21,472 nt of DNA, taken from IMG/VR virus record IMGVR_UViG_3300034418_007207, positions 1 through 21,472 of that record; one strand, written 5' to 3'. Shown one piece after another: positions 1,008 through 8,365 of this stretch (within the stretch, counting starts at the first letter, position 1; every line of letters starts with the position of its first letter). The notes below the pieces were generated by a model. The model was not told the DNA's origin. It worked only from the letters and a program-made list of their open reading frames with translations, and made no database searches. The DNA is from a virus. The position numbers and the translations under genes are program-made.

Positions 1008-3488
1008 TCAAACGATTCCTCGAATGTTTCGCCTCAAGGACCGCTTCCAGCCACCCGTGAAACTCGTCCCGTAAGCCATCGTCGTGTGATCTGTCGCCAG
1101 GCACAGACACACCGCATCGGCTCGGTCAGGTGACTTCAGGCCACGCTTTTTGATGCTTTCCTTGCTTTCAACCTGAATTTTTCCCGTAGACGTGAACGAA
1201 TACCGGGGCGAGGCCAGTTCCGCGAACAATTGCTCGTCCCTCGGCAAACTCACGTCCCGGTTCTCCAGCCATTCCTTCGCCTTGAACCACAGTTCCGCTC
1301 GCGTGTTGATGTAAGTCGCGTTGCTCGCAGCCCTCTCAGAGACGTTCAGACCCCTCGCAGGCAGCCCCAACTCCCTCAGACGGTCCAACACCCCCGCACC
1401 CAGCCCAATGCTGTCCACGATGATCTCCGCAGGCCTCAGATGCGGCGGTGACGTGTCATACTCCACCTTCACCGCGCCCGTAAGCTGCATCAGGTCCAAA
1501 TTCCCCCACACCCGCAGCGGATGCACCACCGGCCCCTGGCGCTTGCACAGCACCGAACTGTCATTCCCGTGACGCGCCACGTCCAGCCCCCAGATCGCCG
1601 TCGTGTTATCGTCAATCCGCACCTCGTTGTGCATAGCATGCTCGATCAGATCGACCGGAATCACCGTATCATCTTCCGCAGGCGGGAAGTTCCCCAGCAC
1701 GCGCACATGATACGCCGGGCTATCCTCCCCATAGCGCAGCTTCATCTCAGCCACAAAGTCATCACTGACCCTCGGGCTATCAATGCAACTCACATGCATC
1801 GTGTACCAATCGCCCCGCAAACGATGGTGCGTATCGTAAAACAGACCCGTATTCCGCGTCGGGTTCCCCGTCAGGATCGTCGTCGCACTATGACCAGACA
1901 TCGATCCCGCAGCACTCTCAAACACAGCTTCCGGCACACCGCTCGCCTCGTCCGCAATCAGCAACACATGCGGACTGTGTACCCCCGCCAAGGCCTCTGG
2001 CTGTTCCGCTCGGCTCGTTCGGCAACTGATAAACGCATCCGCCGCACGGCTCTTCAACTCAATGCGATCAGCCTTTACCTCGATCAAAGACGCAAACGGC
2101 TCTTTCATCTGCTTGGCCATCCGCTTGACCTCAGAAAACAACGCGTCAAACAACTGAGCACTCGTCGGGGCAGTCATCACCACCTTACCAGGTACCCGCC
2201 AGATCAAATGCCACAGAGACGCCATCGCAACCGCGCTGCTGTTATGCGTCACATGGAAATCATCCGTCAGATACAGGCTGTCTTTCGCCTCAACCGTGAT
2301 GCACATGCCGTCCAGCAAGCCAACCGGCTCAATGCTATCAATCCAACGCTTCAAATACCGTTCTTCACTGGCAGGCTTGAACGCCGCGCGCCGCTCCTCA
2401 TGCGTAAACGGATTGTCCGGCACCTGTATCGTGGCACGATATGCCAGACGCCCATTCCGCAAGTTCCCATCCCCATCGCGGTATCGAGGTTGCTTAACCG
2501 CCTCCTGCTTCATCGCCTTGTAACCCAGCGAGCGAGCCAACCAAACGACATCATCCAGCAACCGCTCACTCGAACTGGAATAACCACAAGAACCGCTCGC
2601 CTGAACCTCTCCATCCCCATCCATCAAGCCTTCAAACAGTGCCCGACGCTGCGCAACGCCGGCATACTTGTAAGCGTCAGGAATGTATTTCTCCCAACTG
2701 CGGCACGCAAAAACCGGATCAGACTCCCAGTTCACCTTTGTGATGCCAACCGATCTCCCGTTCGATCTAGCCGTCACCCCACCATGATGCCGCGCAGCCA
2801 GTTTTTCGCGCACGGCAGGGCTGTCTTTGGCAATCACACCCCGACTACCATCACCGAGCCAAACACCCATCACATACGGATCAAGCGGCAAACCCTCCAC
2901 ATGAGCAAACCGCACCGCCCCCTGAATCGGTATCTCCCACTGCCGAGCCATGTTCGCCCCATTCGAGCGCTTTACACCCGCCGCAATAAGCCCCTGCGTC
3001 TCCATAAGCCGCCAGCCCAAACCCTTCCGACGGTCTTGCCTACCCTTCACAAGCCATTCATGCTCACCAGACACGACAACACTCGACCGATCGTCAAACG
3101 TCACCCGGTAATGCTCTCGCCTATAGTGATTCGTTGCAATCACCCGCGTCGGAACACCGTCAGCCCCGAACACGTAATCACCGATTTTGATGTCACCCCA
3201 CCTCACCACTTTCATGCCCGTCGCCTCCAAATGACCATCCGGAGACAATGCCACCTGACACGGAATTAGGCAATCCTCATCAACACATTTACCTTTCCCC
3301 ACACCGTGCCCTGATCGCACACTGACACGCCGCAACTTCGGGTCAGCCACAGTCTGCAAAAACTCCACCTGCCAAGGATCAGGATTAACACCCAACACCT
3401 CTTGCGCAAACAACACAGGCGCATTCCCACCACGCCCGTAGCGGTCAGCTAACTTGAGAAACGGATTGGCCTGTTGCTGGTCACTCAT
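1008..3488 (-). CDS. terL: Terminase large subunit (TerL), interrupted by an intein
   Basis: This is the DNA-packaging motor: an ATPase that drives DNA into the prohead plus a nuclease that cuts the concatemer. The precursor has 826 residues; removing the intein (residues 68-416) leaves a 477-residue TerL, normal for the family. The Walker A loop GHGVGKGK (60-67) continues with Ser417 only after splicing. Walker B is LLIADEAS (509-516) and the coupling motif is ILTGNPTR (538-545). The RNase H-like nuclease acidic residues are D636 (WGLDVARHGND), D692 (IIVDSIG) and the SPDRADAV motif (786-793). AAGGAGG sits 8 nt before the ATG. The start overlaps the stop of the upstream small gene by ATGA. 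TerS lies about 690 bp upstream on the same strand. No catalytic residue appears to be missing, so the protein should be active once spliced. Confidence 0.96.
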   Translation of the reverse strand: MSDQQQANPFLKLADRYGRGGNAPVLFAQEVLGVNPDPWQVEFLQTVADPKLRRVSVRSGHGVGKGKCVDEDCLIPCQVALSPDGHLEATGMKVVRWGDIKIGDYVFGADGVPTRVIATNHYRREHYRVTFDDRSSVVVSGEHEWLVKGRQDRRKGLGWRLMETQGLIAAGVKRSNGANMARQWEIPIQGAVRFAHVEGLPLDPYVMGVWLGDGSRGVIAKDSPAVREKLAARHHGGVTARSNGRSVGITKVNWESDPVFACRSWEKYIPDAYKYAGVAQRRALFEGLMDGDGEVQASGSCGYSSSSERLLDDVVWLARSLGYKAMKQEAVKQPRYRDGDGNLRNGRLAYRATIQVPDNPFTHEERRAAFKPASEERYLKRWIDSIEPVGLLDGMCITVEAKDSLYLTDDFHVTHNSSAVAMASLWHLIWRVPGKVVMTAPTSAQLFDALFSEVKRMAKQMKEPFASLIEVKADRIELKSRAADAFISCRTSRAEQPEALAGVHSPHVLLIADEASGVPEAVFESAAGSMSGHSATTILTGNPTRNTGLFYDTHHRLRGDWYTMHVSCIDSPRVSDDFVAEMKLRYGEDSPAYHVRVLGNFPPAEDDTVIPVDLIEHAMHNEVRIDDNTTAIWGLDVARHGNDSSVLCKRQGPVVHPLRVWGNLDLMQLTGAVKVEYDTSPPHLRPAEIIVDSIGLGAGVLDRLRELGLPARGLNVSERAASNATYINTRAELWFKAKEWLENRDVSLPRDEQLFAELASPRYSFTSTGKIQVESKESIKKRGLKSPDRADAVCLCLATDHTTMAYGTSFTGGWKRSLRRNIRGIV
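2241..3287 (-). mobile_element. Intein with LAGLIDADG homing endonuclease, in the TerL P-loop
   Basis: This is an in-frame 349-residue intein (TerL residues 68-416). It begins with Cys (CVDEDCLIP, block A) and ends YLTDDFHVTHN with the expected penultimate His and final Asn; the first residue of the downstream extein is Ser. Block B is seen as VVVSGEHEWLV, where the His fits the family's splicing His. Two dodecapeptide endonuclease motifs are present, GVWLGDG (208-214) and GLMDGDG (287-293), each keeping its acidic residue (D213, D292), so the endonuclease looks intact. Insertion lies inside Walker A, between Lys67 and Ser417, a typical conserved site for inteins in ATPases. Base composition does not differ obviously from the TerL flanks by eye. 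Confidence 0.96.
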
Positions 3489-3887: not shown

Positions 3888-3920
3888 GCCCCGCCGCCGG
3901 GATCGCAGGGGGGGCTTTTT
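3888..3920. terminator. Terminator-like GC hairpin
   Basis: GCCCC (3888-3892) pairs with GGGGC (3911-3915). On the plus strand TTTTT follows directly; on the minus strand only CTTTG follows. The better reading is a plus-strand terminator, but no plus-strand gene ends here. It may act in both directions, separating terS from terL transcription. Confidence 0.4.
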
Positions 3921-4001
3921 GCGCCAGCGTTACCAGCGGTCAGGCGTCGAGATCGAGGCGAAGACTGACCATTTAACGCAATATGGCCTATAATCCGTAT
4001 T

Positions 4002-4030
4002 ATGTTAAATGTGATTTTGTTTGTTTTCAA
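4002..4030 (-). promoter_or_regulatory. Possible sigma70-type promoter toward terL
   Basis: On the minus strand TTGAAA (4030-4025) is followed by a 17-nt spacer and TAACAT (4007-4002). It lies between the palindrome cluster and the small cassette/terL, so it could drive terL separately from terS. The match is moderate. A competing plus-strand TATAAT lies at 3989-3994 with a weak -35. Confidence 0.35.
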
Positions 4031-4042
4031 ACACTTAGCGTT

Positions 4043-4122
4043 TTCTGCGGCGCAGAATGTCGAGAATGTGCAATCTAAGCAGCAATGTAAGCGCTTACAT
4101 CCTAGTTGCGAATGATTCGCAA
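4043..4122. promoter_or_regulatory. Cluster of three perfect palindromes (operator or packaging site)
   Basis: Three perfect inverted repeats occur within 80 bp: TTCTGCG-G-CGCAGAA (4043-4057), ATGTAAGCGCTTACAT (4085-4100) and TTGCGAAT-G-ATTCGCAA (4106-4122). A fourth, ATAAT-CCGT-ATTAT, lies at 3990-4003. Loops of zero or one base point to DNA sites for dimeric proteins, not RNA hairpins. The second resembles LacI-family operators; the third has the general form of Fur-family boxes. Their place just past terS also fits a packaging-recognition site. Confidence 0.55.
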
Positions 4123-4176
4123 TTGCAATATCGCGCGCGCCCATACCCCCGACCGCTGCCGGTGTGTGATTTCGCC

Positions 4177-4644
4177 CTATTCCTCGCCTTCCTCCCACGC
4201 CTCAAGCTCCTCGTAATCACCTTCAAGCACAGCGCCCACCACCTCATCACCAACCAGTTCGGCCACCTGCGCATGCAGGTCTTCAATCCTCAACGTCACT
4301 GTCGTTTCGCGCTGGCGTACATCGTAATCCTGATTGAGTTTACCGGCCATCCACTTATCAGTATCGACCTTGAGCCTAGCCATGTTCACCAAAGCAGGAT
4401 CATCCACGCCCTGCGCCGTTTCCACGGCTCGCGCAGCGTAGGCATGACCTGCTAGCTTGAGTGCGTCTTGATATCGATCTGCCCGTCCGTCTGCTTTGCG
4501 CAGGAACCTGTAGAAGATACGCAAGCCTACTTCGTATTCACGGCACAGGCTGTTGACGCTTTCGCCATTGGCGATCCGGTCGAAGATTGTATCCTCTCCG
4601 ATCTGTTCCAGCTTGGCGATCTTCATGTCTCCGATTTTGGACAT
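4177..4644 (-). CDS. terS: Terminase small subunit (TerS)
   Basis: A 155-residue DNA-recognition subunit of the packaging terminase. The N-terminal half has a helix-turn-helix-like segment (GESVNSLCREYEVGLRIFYRF, around residues 27-47). This is followed by the ARLKVDTDKWMAGKLN stretch (about 88-103), typical of small terminase subunits, and a very acidic C-terminal tail ending EELEAWEEGEE. The length is normal for the family. The start at 4644 is supported by AAAGGG 8 nt upstream; an internal ATG at 4626 has its GGAG too close. It lies 4 nt after the winged-helix gene, so the two are cotranscribed. terL follows only after about 690 bp, which is unusually far. Confidence 0.88.
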   Translation of the reverse strand: MSKIGDMKIAKLEQIGEDTIFDRIANGESVNSLCREYEVGLRIFYRFLRKADGRADRYQDALKLAGHAYAARAVETAQGVDDPALVNMARLKVDTDKWMAGKLNQDYDVRQRETTVTLRIEDLHAQVAELVGDEVVGAVLEGDYEELEAWEEGEE

Positions 4645-4648
4645 TGCC

Positions 4649-5278
4649 TTATCCCTTTCGTTTCCACAGCACCAACTGCACGCCAGTCTCTTGCCTCGTT
4701 GTCACACGCTTTGCCACTGTCCCACACCTGTACATGTACGCCAGGCGCGCGGATACGTTTGCCACGGGTAAGCCTATTAGTTCCGCTATTTGCCCTGACG
4801 TTGATTCTTTGTGCATGGCGTCGAGAAACCGCTTGTCCAGGTCCATAATCCCGTCACCGTAGTCTGGTCTCAGCACATAGTGCGTCAAGGGCCTTGTAAC
4901 CGACTTCTGGACGCTGAGAGACTTTGAGACGACGCCACCCTCGATCAACCTCTTGAGGCCGTTACGCACCGACGTTTCTGACAGTTTGGTTACCTTTGTG
5001 ATCCGCGCGACTGTCATGCGCTCACCGCAGTCCGCCATTGCGGTGACGATCAGATCGTTCTTTTCGGCCAGTGTGCCATCTGCGTATACCACGCCCGACT
5101 TCTTCTGCATTTCGCCCCTGACCCGCGCGTGCCGCTTTTCCATCTCGATGGCGTCTTTCAACATGAGTTCCCGATATCGATCTTCACCCAGAAGTTCGAT
5201 GACCTTCGGCGCTGTTCCCCTGACGATTTTTGCCGCCACGCGATGCGCCTTTTCAATCGGCGTGTAACCTTCTCTCAC
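4649..5278 (-). CDS. Winged-helix DNA-binding protein, possible phage regulator
   Basis: A 209-residue protein. The middle (about 75-125) reads as a winged helix: MTVARITKVTKLSETSVRNG then RLIEGGVVSKSL. A second such unit near the C-terminus contains STSGQIAELIGLPVANVSAR and then MYRCGTVAKRV. Two winged-helix units suggest a transcription regulator or a replication/partition DNA-binding protein. The GTG at 5278 is chosen because AAGGAG lies 6 nt before it; the ATG at 5284 abuts that sequence directly. It is the first gene of the unit leading into terS. An exact copy of the 11-bp motif TTGTATTGACA lies about 23 bp upstream, suggesting control by the factor that binds the 14.9-kb operator. The precise family is not recognised. 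Confidence 0.75.
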   Translation of the reverse strand: MREGYTPIEKAHRVAAKIVRGTAPKVIELLGEDRYRELMLKDAIEMEKRHARVRGEMQKKSGVVYADGTLAEKNDLIVTAMADCGERMTVARITKVTKLSETSVRNGLKRLIEGGVVSKSLSVQKSVTRPLTHYVLRPDYGDGIMDLDKRFLDAMHKESTSGQIAELIGLPVANVSARLAYMYRCGTVAKRVTTRQETGVQLVLWKRKG

Positions 5279-5300
5279 AGTCATCTCCTTGTTTCATCCA

Positions 5301-5653: not shown

Positions 5654-8116
5654 TCAGAACGGCACATCGTTGTCATCGTCAACTTTCTCAAACCAGTCAC
5701 GCACCCTCTGCTTGGCCCTTTCCGAGTCCATATTAGGGCCCAATTGATACCAGACATAATGCTTGGTCTGACCCACCTTCACGCGCCGCCCATCAACCTG
5801 CGAATACCCCATATCGCGCAACACGTTTGCCAGTGCCCGCGTCTTCGGCATCTCTTTCCCGTCAATACAAACCGCGTTGTTCAAGTAAGTCACATCGAGC
5901 ACATCACTACCGACAATCGCGCACCGGTAATCCTCGATGGCCTCCTCCACCATGATACGATCATCGCTCATATTGGCCGCCCGCATCTCGTCGACACCTT
6001 TCGTCTTCGGGGCGCGCCCGTGGGGCTTGAACTCATCTGACAGGCGACGTTCCATCAAATACCGCCCGATGGCGTCCACGCGCCTCTCTGTCTCTGTGAA
6101 CAGCCTGTCAAAGTACGCTGCCACCCCGTCTGGCCCCCCGTGCTGGTCGAACAAGTCGTCTTGGCGGCGCTGCCTGGTGAAGATGACGCAATACCGCCTG
6201 TCATTGTCTGACATTGGGACCGCGTCTTGGTGATTGGTCGTCATGAGGTACGACGCGAAGTTTGGGGCGTGATACGAGGTGCCGCCCTTTGGCTCGACTG
6301 CGATGGTGCTGTTCGAGATCATCGGCTTAAGCTGATCAAGAATGCGCCACTTGTTGGTGCCGCTGATCCTGATCTCCTCAATACCAATCAGCCTGGAGCC
6401 TACTGCCCAATCGTTGAAAGGCCTCTCGATCATGGAAGTCGTCACTGTGCGGGCGTTACGGCCAAGCAGAAGCTGCATGAGGTGATAAAAATACGTCTTG
6501 CCGTTGCCCTCGATCCCCCAGAGCAACAGGCCCCAGCGGACGCGGTTCTCGGGGCGGCGATAGACGTAAGACATGAAGTCCAGCAGCAGCCCCTGTTCAC
6601 GCGGGTCGTCGATAGTGTTGCGGACGTGCTGAAGGAAGAGATCAACCACCGACTGGCCGTCGTCGTCGCCCTGGAGCGTCTCGCAGGGGTCAATGCCGCT
6701 GTCGTGGTAACTGTTGACGTACTGCTTGCCCTCGGTCTCAAAGGTCTCGGGCTGACCGGGCCAGTACATGGTGCGCACGACTGTGGGGATCTGGACATAG
6801 GTCAGGGCGTAGGTGGCTGCGTCCATCTCCATGGCGGCGCACTCGGGCATGCGGTCAAACTTGGCGCGGAAGGCCTCTTTCTTGATTGCGTAGTCGGACA
6901 CGTTGGTGTTCACGAAGAGGCAATCGGCCTCGGCGTAAACCCAGCCAACCAGCCAGTCGGGGACTTCAACGTTGTGGTCGGGGTCGCGGGTGGCGCGGCG
7001 GACCACGGGCTTGAAGGCGGCCTTGACCTCGCGCAGACCCATCTTCGCGTCATTGGCGTAAACCTCGTGCACGATCTTGGCGAGCATCGACCTGATGTCC
7101 GGGGGCATCTGCACGTCATTGAGGCCCTGCACGCGGCGCTTGAAAGCGTTGTAGCTGTCGCGGTCACAGACCGACGCGGCCTCGTCTTCCAGCGTCTGTG
7201 CGACGGCCTGCGCGCCGCGCTGGACGGCCTCCCCCTTGAGGCCACCGACGGCCTTGATCAGCGTGGCCATCGTCACAGGCGAGGCGTGGCCGCCAAAGGA
7301 CTTCCACTTGACCCTCATCTGGCGGGCGTCGTGCTTGCTGGACTTCTCGGACCATGAAACCCATTGGTCGAAGCCCCGGCCCTCGGTCTGATGGTAGAGC
7401 GCCATGCCGACGCGCAGCCAATCGTCATAATCAAGCCCCTCTGCCGGGTAACTCTCCAGCAGGATCGCCACTTGGTCATCGCTGATGTCGAGCGGCTCGC
7501 TGGCGACAGCGATGGCCAGATCATCAAGCCCATCTTCATCGCCCAGCGCGTCGGCGTAGACTATGCCGCCCTGAACCTGATCGGGGACCGCCCAAGCGGC
7601 ACCGTCTTGGCGCAGCGACCAAGGATCGACGCCGTGGCGGTGACTGGGCAAGAACATGATCTGGTTCATAGTGTATGAACAATCGTCGGGGTCGCCCAGA
7701 TCAATGGCGTCTCGAATCGCGTCAACGATGGGGCCGTATTCGGACCCGGTGACGGGTCTGGAGAGCGGGACGGCCACACGAAAGCGCGGTGCCTCGGGGG
7801 TGTGGCGGAAAGTCGAGTAAGCCACAAAGCCCACGTCAGGCAGGCCGATCTGCAAGGCAAACTCAATGTCTTCAAGCGTAACACCCTCGTCCAGATCGTC
7901 GTAATCCAGCATGGCGATAGTGCGCAGGTGTATGTTCTCGGCCCGACCGGTGGTCTCGTCCTTGCGCAAGCCGCCGATGATAGCCGCGCGTTTGATGCTC
8001 TCTTCCTTGGATGCGTAACCGGTGGACTTCATGCACGCGGCTGCGAACTTGTCCCACGAAGCCTCTCGGGTCTCCGCATGGGCAAAATTTCTGCAATAGG
8101 TGAATTTAAGCATCAT
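5654..8116 (-). CDS. Primase-helicase: AEP-type primase, PriCT and SF3 helicase domains
   Basis: An 820-residue protein that probably primes and unwinds phage DNA. The N-terminal part looks like an archaeo-eukaryotic-type primase: LDYDDLDE (about 70-77) and STFRHTPEAPRFRVAVPLSR (about 101-120). A PriCT-like segment follows (DYDDWLRVGMALY, about 230-275). The C-terminal part is an SF3/D5-like helicase: Walker A GIEGNGKTY (about 534-542), Walker B RLIGIEEI (about 575-582), sensor TTNHQDAVPMSDNDRRY with the likely Arg finger. The first of two tandem ATGs (8116) has GGAGG 5 nt upstream; the frame extends 18 codons further but overlaps the upstream gene more. It overlaps the small HTH gene by 11 nt, so the two are coupled. 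Confidence 0.9.
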   Translation of the reverse strand: MMLKFTYCRNFAHAETREASWDKFAAACMKSTGYASKEESIKRAAIIGGLRKDETTGRAENIHLRTIAMLDYDDLDEGVTLEDIEFALQIGLPDVGFVAYSTFRHTPEAPRFRVAVPLSRPVTGSEYGPIVDAIRDAIDLGDPDDCSYTMNQIMFLPSHRHGVDPWSLRQDGAAWAVPDQVQGGIVYADALGDEDGLDDLAIAVASEPLDISDDQVAILLESYPAEGLDYDDWLRVGMALYHQTEGRGFDQWVSWSEKSSKHDARQMRVKWKSFGGHASPVTMATLIKAVGGLKGEAVQRGAQAVAQTLEDEAASVCDRDSYNAFKRRVQGLNDVQMPPDIRSMLAKIVHEVYANDAKMGLREVKAAFKPVVRRATRDPDHNVEVPDWLVGWVYAEADCLFVNTNVSDYAIKKEAFRAKFDRMPECAAMEMDAATYALTYVQIPTVVRTMYWPGQPETFETEGKQYVNSYHDSGIDPCETLQGDDDGQSVVDLFLQHVRNTIDDPREQGLLLDFMSYVYRRPENRVRWGLLLWGIEGNGKTYFYHLMQLLLGRNARTVTTSMIERPFNDWAVGSRLIGIEEIRISGTNKWRILDQLKPMISNSTIAVEPKGGTSYHAPNFASYLMTTNHQDAVPMSDNDRRYCVIFTRQRRQDDLFDQHGGPDGVAAYFDRLFTETERRVDAIGRYLMERRLSDEFKPHGRAPKTKGVDEMRAANMSDDRIMVEEAIEDYRCAIVGSDVLDVTYLNNAVCIDGKEMPKTRALANVLRDMGYSQVDGRRVKVGQTKHYVWYQLGPNMDSERAKQRVRDWFEKVDDDNDVPF

Positions 8117-8285
8117 CGCTGCCTCCGTCGTTCGACGCCCGCAGCGCGGCGACGACATCGTTAAAATCAAACCTGTAATGCCCGCTGGGCAGCTTGGTAG
8201 CGGGGATGTGGCCCTCGTTGGCTAGGCGCAGAACAGTGTTCTTTGATACCCCGAGCGCGACAGCCAGTTCGCTGGATCGCATCAT
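8106..8285 (-). CDS. Small MerR/excisionase-type helix-turn-helix protein (59 aa)
   Basis: A 59-residue DNA-binding protein. It reads SSELAVALGVSKNTVLRLAN followed by GHIPATKLPSGHYRF, the pattern of helix-turn-helix_17/excisionase-like proteins (helix-turn-helix plus a short wing), then an acidic tail. AAAGG lies 8 nt before the ATG at 8285. It is the first gene of the leftward unit and faces the rightward early operon. A TGCGT-ATTG-ACGCA inverted repeat (8302-8315) 17 bp upstream is a natural operator for it, so it may regulate both transcripts. Excisionase function is unlikely to be testable here because no integrase is visible. The family call is good; the role is inference. Confidence 0.82.
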   Translation of the reverse strand: MMRSSELAVALGVSKNTVLRLANEGHIPATKLPSGHYRFDFNDVVAALRASNDGGSDDA

Positions 8286-8301
8286 AACTGTAACCTTTCG
8301 T

Positions 8302-8336
8302 TGCGTATTGACGCAGAACGTGCCACATGATAGCGC
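8302..8336 (+). promoter_or_regulatory. Divergent control region: operator and probable rightward promoter
   Basis: TGCGT (8302-8306) and ACGCA (8311-8315) form an inverted repeat. TTGACG (8308-8313) followed by 17 nt and TAGCGC (8331-8336) gives a plausible alphaproteobacterial promoter 30 nt before the ATG at 8366. The core GTATTGAC is shared with the TTGTATTGACA motif at 5.3 and 14.9 kb. The operator overlaps the -35, as expected for repression. Confidence 0.5.
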
Positions 8337-8365
8337 TGGTCGGCAAGACAAAAAGGAAGGTTACA

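Follow-up and report, generated by a model that had tools for sequence, protein, structure and literature searches.

Dif-like Xer sites beside the terminase genes of tailed phages suggest a host-assisted route to genome circularization

Between its terminase genes, the viral DNA analyzed here (the window, a virus record of 21,472 bases from a marine phage) contains a gap unusually rich in inverted repeats, which raises the question of which proteins use it and for what function. The genes are encoded on the minus strand in the order wHTH (4649-5284), terS (terminase small subunit; 4177-4644, Sf6_terminase, PF20901, E 9.6e-14), gap, and terL (terminase large subunit; 1008-3488), the latter with a LAGLIDADG intein (LAGLIDADG_3, E 2e-5) that is inserted at the ATP-binding loop (GVGKGK/C...HN/SSAV). 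Three perfect palindromes were found within 80 bp of the gap (4043-4122): the 15-bp TTCTGCG-G-CGCAGAA (TTCTGCGGCGCAGAA, 4043-4057, detected by repeat search), the 16-bp ATGTAAGCGCTTACAT (4085-4100), LacI/cre-like in form only, and the 17-bp TTGCGAAT-G-ATTCGCAA (TTGCGAATGATTCGCAA, 4106-4122), Fur-like in form only. A looser one, TGTTTG-TTTT-CAAACA (4018-4033), was also present in locus L038. An earlier, sequence-only reading had correctly noted three perfect palindromes and a looser one here and had considered their symmetry to exceed chance, which was borne out by shuffling: the 168-bp segment from terS to the dif-like site described below held four palindromes with a half-length of at least 6, with 0.27 expected (0 of 300 shuffles reached four), and the three with a half-length of at least 7 in the 397-bp gap were equaled in 1 of 3000 shuffles. 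Seven palindromes of this strongest class were counted in the whole 21-kb window, three of them in the terS-terL gap. Also present were an alternating GC box adjoining the terS stop (4132-4140), kept by relatives as GCGCGTGCGCG, and, between the dif-like site and terL, a C7 tract on the minus strand (3908-3914), kept by relatives as GACCCCCCC(C).

In order to score candidate Xer sites, a position weight matrix was built from 46 published dif sites (Carnoy and Roten, PMC2731167). A 28-bp site on the plus strand (3983-4010) reached 31.4 bits for the arms alone, in the upper range of the 46 real dif sites (11.7-37.7 bits). The second-ranked distinct location scored 3.6 bits (a value of 7.6 corresponded to the opposite strand of the site itself), and shuffled windows gave a mean of 6.2 bits (sd 3.5, maximum 24.6, n = 400). 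The layout was that of dif, with two 11-bp arms, one of XerC type (ATGGCCTATAA, 3983-3993) and one of XerD type (TTATGTTAAAT, 4000-4010, identical to the XerD arm of Escherichia coli dif), around a 6-bp centre, TCCGTA (3994-3999). The site is contained in a 42-bp imperfect inverted repeat (3970-4011; 17-bp arms, 82% complementary), which also includes a degenerate second XerD arm in inverted orientation (ATTTAACGCAA, 3971-3981). No Rfam match was obtained in the window. Judged by its sequence, the core of the symmetric region is thus a dif-type Xer recombination site. With chromosomal dif from E. coli and other Proteobacteria it shares the 28-bp layout, the XerD arm as the best conserved part and a variable centre, but it differs in being carried by a tailed phage beside terS and terL and, in several lineages, in having an accessory motif at fixed spacing. 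Its centre also differs from the usual gamma-proteobacterial TGTATA, although TGTATA may not be the centre used by the host of this phage. The starting point of the symmetric region in the sequence-only reading, position 3990, pointed to the right region but cut through the dif-like site, and its proposal of a set of binding sites for several dimeric proteins gave way to an Xer/dif recombination site as the conserved core.

Relatives were collected by TerS and TerL; among GenBank phages, no close relative was found by DNA or by TerS. Within the terS-terL gap, a dif-like site of constant place and orientation was observed in 113 loci comprising 75 distinct sequences (some loci being the same contig), including the MAG contig L024, and persisted in relatives with as little as 47% TerS identity. 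The XerD arm was nearly fixed, and the centre occurred in 22 forms. In 61 close pairs, defined by a flank similarity of 90% or more, changes per site amounted to 0 in the XerD arm, 0.036 in the XerC arm, 0.093 in the centre and about 0.047 in the flanks, the centre thus changing about twice as fast as the flanks. A variable centre combined with an invariant XerD arm is the pattern expected of an active site that has to match only itself. Near the site, L129 and L132 differed almost exclusively in the centre and the outer XerC arm, and L004 and L005 differed in a roughly 90-bp cassette starting at the centre; such differences would be expected of an active site whose centre is free to vary, other routes to them being possible. 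The site was degenerate or not recognizable in a few relatives (L026, L027, L042, L030, L041, L059 and L061). In L059 and L061, which have no recognizable dif, the gap contains tandem CGTTGACGTAAGAGGCATAG repeats. In L035, L106 and L150-L170 the second XerD arm was well preserved, forming an inverted pair TTAACATAAT...ATTATGTTAA. A second inverted XerD arm at a distance of 20-50 bp, found in these loci as well as in L039 and L040, recalls the paired attP of CTXphi. A second dif-like match 5-8 kb downstream in G002 and G006 was discarded, as it lay inside a gene and did not represent a site.

The palindromes behaved differently from the dif-like site. Among the loci examined, the 16-mer ATGTAAGCGCTTACAT was restricted to the window and the near-identical L002 and L003, and within this phage family the 17-mer TTGCGAATGATTCGCAA was likewise confined to the window and near-identical contigs, while cousins of the 15-mer (TGCTGCGSCGCAGCA) flanked dif in L039, L040, L046 and L151. 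Enrichment of perfect palindromes was rejected as a family trait, since the excess in ten representative segments (7 vs. 3.1 expected) came from the window. As the LacI-like and Fur-like palindromes showed no conservation in the gaps of relatives, they do not qualify as a terminase signal of the family. The sequence-only proposal of a packaging region therefore stood only in part: the dif-like site adjoins terminase genes in most of the contexts examined, but the palindromes as such a signal of the family had to be abandoned. Host DNA-binding proteins, also suggested there as users of the region, are rated likely, and the palindromes beside dif probably represent operators or accessory sites specific to this lineage. 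Outside the family, the 17-mer was present, as TTGCGAATNATTCGCAA, in about 33 other viral contigs (L362, L387, L365, L375 and L367 among them), sometimes with TTGCA following it, and in two of these other contigs it lay 14-29 bp upstream of the start of a terL-like ORF.

An accessory motif, GCTAAGTGTTTGA (4027-4039, minus strand), overlapped by the loose palindrome, occurs in the window as a single copy whose distance to the XerD arm is 31 bp. The same arrangement, GCTAAGT-NN-TTGA 31 bp from TTAACATAA, was found in several lineages. Its reverse complement, (W)ATCAATGACTTA, resembles the consensus for IHF binding, WATCARNNNNTTR; the version found in relatives (AATCAATGACTTA) fits this consensus, and that of the window (TTTCAAACACTTA) has one mismatch. 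The composite GCTAAGTNNNTGA-N18-TTAACATAA was detected in at least 119 viral contigs, and with the spacing shifted by 6 bp (N24) in none. Moreover, TTAT was located exactly at the place expected for the XerC arm in 58 of 68 new loci, even though this arm was absent from the search pattern. Matches in L269 and L285 had no XerC arm and were set aside as looking like chance. The IHF-like motif was missing from some dif-bearing clades.

Of 109 composite loci, 83 were beside a terminase of the window type and 14 were assigned to a second, unrelated family of tailed phages, where dif and GCTAAGT at 31 bp are situated about 0.4-1.2 kb from a terS-like gene (L211, L214, L215, L243, L258, L270 and L301, among others). 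One of these 14, L298, had been assigned by a weak portal match and is better placed with a third type, the order TerS-dif-TerL with another type of terminase found in L289, L298 and L300; in L263, L308 and L282 the site was upstream of a terS-like ORF, both arrangements being judged from translated sequences by eye only. The composite motif was accordingly present in at least three unrelated terminase neighborhoods. Since the terminases differ between carriers of the accessory motif, a host protein is the likelier ligand, and the resemblance to the consensus suggests that IHF may bind it.

Whether the site lies within the ends of the packaged genome was approached through Sinorhizobium phage phiM5, whose TerL is 53% identical to the C-terminal extein of the window TerL. 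The direct terminal repeat of phiM5 begins within a terS-like ORF and stops about 35 bp before terL, with a C tract of the kind kept in the window family just inside its end. Dif is missing from this phage, which carries an integrase gene of its own and has a TerS without obvious relationship to that of the window. If the window family packages its DNA like phiM5, dif would be inside its terminal repeat; by this analogy, the terminal redundancy of the window phage is predicted to cover the site. The ends of contigs were scattered instead of accumulating at a single base and thus give no indication of the physical ends. The 3' end of one public contig, L149, resembles a Nextera adapter (CTGTCTCTTATACACATCT), an assembly artifact.

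The position of dif relative to genome ends could be read directly in the rV5-like phages, a group of lytic phages infecting E. coli. They carry (A)TTTAACATAATACC(T/C)ATTATGCGCACC within a large non-coding gap (6001-6024 in phage V5, L348; also in L349, L351 and L353). The records of Gotham, EdH4 and HdK5 open at physical ends, and in them an exact 459-bp terminal repeat contains dif at base 172 and again in its right copy; similarly, Erwinia phage Hena1 has a dif-like site within an annotated repeat. Both arms of the rV5-like sites match E. coli dif, but their centre is TGGGTA or TAGGTA instead of the TGTATA of the host (4 of 6 bases matching in Gotham and 3 of 6 in V5; host centres from the table in PMC2731167). 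Xer strand joining requires matching centre bases (PMC4246890), so this mismatch favors recombination of repeat by repeat over integration. The rV5-like phages (Vequintavirinae) share with the window phage the dif core, the tailed morphology and the lack of any sign of integration; unlike it, they are large lytic myoviruses with a 459-bp terminal repeat devoid of annotated genes and no GCTAAGT motif. No published description of the rV5-like site was found. Rheinheimera phage Barba8S (L357) has a dif-like match (4001-4024) in a 1.3-kb gap without annotated genes, which may be a terminal repeat too.

Tyrosine integrases (PF00589) were not detected in the window or in any of 41 screened relatives and composite-motif records, nor serine recombinases (PF00239) in any of 37 such records screened, many of the records being fragments. 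Thirty-six dif-bearing records were screened for both types (G017/L041, without a recognizable dif, being excluded), including three closed circular assemblies of 36-37 kb (G001, G005 and G006). In a sister clade without dif, a serine recombinase was encoded near terL in six of eight records (L064, L082, L086, L088, L090 and L103), and in L064 it was directly upstream of terL, in the slot of the gap where others have dif. A small HTH_17 protein encoded near the primase gene of the window (8106-8351, minus strand) is weakly similar to excisionases.

Taken as a whole, these observations are best accommodated, with somewhat more confidence than doubt, by a dif site located within the terminally redundant ends of the window phage genome, whose two copies would be recombined by host XerCD to circularize or monomerize the genome. 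The DNA would enter as a linear molecule with dif at both ends, and after injection host XerC and XerD, the presumed recombinases of the window site, would join the two copies into a circular genome; the same reaction could also resolve genome multimers. A host DNA-bending protein would probably assist, given the IHF-like motif 31 bp from the XerD arm. With recombination supplied by host XerCD, the phage would need no recombinase of its own. A parallel is offered by phage P1, in which loxP is near the packaging start, so that the terminal redundancy carries two copies that are recombined by the phage-coded Cre. The window phage would resemble this loxP-Cre system beside pac in having a recombination site near the packaging start, its redundancy being a prediction, but differs in that no phage recombinase was found in the window or in relatives, host XerCD being proposed instead. 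Having no cognate recombinase of the phage, the dif site may work like loxP without being a member of that class. The excisionase-like HTH protein speaks against circularization as the function, as it could point to lysogeny. Further points on this side are the lack of dif and the presence of an integrase in phiM5, the phage on which the terminal-repeat analogy is built, the dif-bearing clades devoid of the IHF-like motif, and the degenerate or missing site of a few close relatives (L026, L041 and L059).

Lysogeny is central to the main rival, in which the site is an attP and a temperate phage integrates at the chromosomal dif of its host by XerCD, as do IMEX, microviruses and tailless phages among them. 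Phage dif sites are known to serve integration, all those described in PMC5357621, PMC4246890, PMC9966536 and PMC10589892 being attP sites, and the IMEX (CTXphi, VGJphi, TLCphi, NO16 and Jorvik) share with the window phage a phage-borne dif-like site and the lack of an integrase gene. The excisionase-like protein, HTH_3 repressor-like genes in some relatives and the two inverted XerD arms reminiscent of CTXphi would agree with this explanation, as would the centres of bacterial dif sites, which also vary between species. However, the IMEX are filamentous or tailless, with integration at dif demonstrated or inferred, unlike the tailed phages with the site beside the terminase considered here, and integration does not need such a placement. 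A search of 84,980 species genomes with two peptide patterns found no integrated copies of the window phage family and returned a single relative, a 17-kb MAG contig without attL/attR or host flanks. Near-identical phages (L129/L132, L004/L005) differ in the centre, and the centres of the E. coli phages depart from that of their host despite fitting arms. Integration at dif is consequently regarded as an unlikely function, albeit one that deserves consideration.

Clearly less probable is a monomerization site like cer or psi on a prophage maintained as a plasmid, where host regulators bound to the palindromes would impose directionality in the manner of ArgR/ArcA. Cer and psi do resemble the window in that accessory DNA lies to one side of an Xer core, and the one-sided motif at fixed spacing, the adjoining palindromes of the window and a self-acting centre would all suit such a site. 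Nevertheless, ParB was found in 0 of 20 relatives, the centre has 6 bp as in dif instead of the 8 bp of cer, the accessory motif is a different one, no ArgR/PepA site was identified, most relatives have no palindromes, and the dif inside terminal repeats of lytic phages would be left unexplained. It is highly improbable that the palindromes are the functional elements, serving as operators or for recognition by the terminase, and that the likeness to dif is incidental. Their significance in the window and the occurrence of TTGCGAATNATTCGCAA in further viral contigs, in two cases a short distance upstream of a terL-like ORF, would be in line with this possibility, but relatives show no conservation of the 16- and 17-mers, and a dif kept over more than 100 loci and beside unrelated terminases cannot be an incidental resemblance.

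Circularization by XerCD thus remains the preferred explanation for the window phage, and it may extend further. Since many unrelated tailed phages carry a dif-type site at the known or predicted junction of their genome ends, they probably borrow the host enzyme to circularize. With slightly less assurance than for the window phage, it is proposed that many tailed phages with terminases of several unrelated lineages, among them lytic phages, retain dif in their terminal redundancy and rely on host XerCD instead of a recombinase of their own to circularize or monomerize the genome, a host bending protein assisting in some lineages. In phages without cohesive ends or a recombinase, genome closure is usually credited to general homologous recombination. 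Phages exploiting Xer are already known among filamentous phages, microviruses and tailless phages (PMC5357621, PMC4246890, PMC9966536, PMC10589892). A search of openly accessible literature found no reports of dif in terminal repeats or beside the terminases of tailed phages. If the proposal is correct, terminal repeats with a host Xer site would offer a dedicated and testable circularization route. Such a site would account for non-coding gaps in widely used E. coli phages as well as in abundant marine phages, and would provide a sequence signal for locating genome ends in metagenomes. The circle of Xer-exploiting elements, made up of filamentous and tailless phages that integrate, would also be widened to include tailed and lytic phages.
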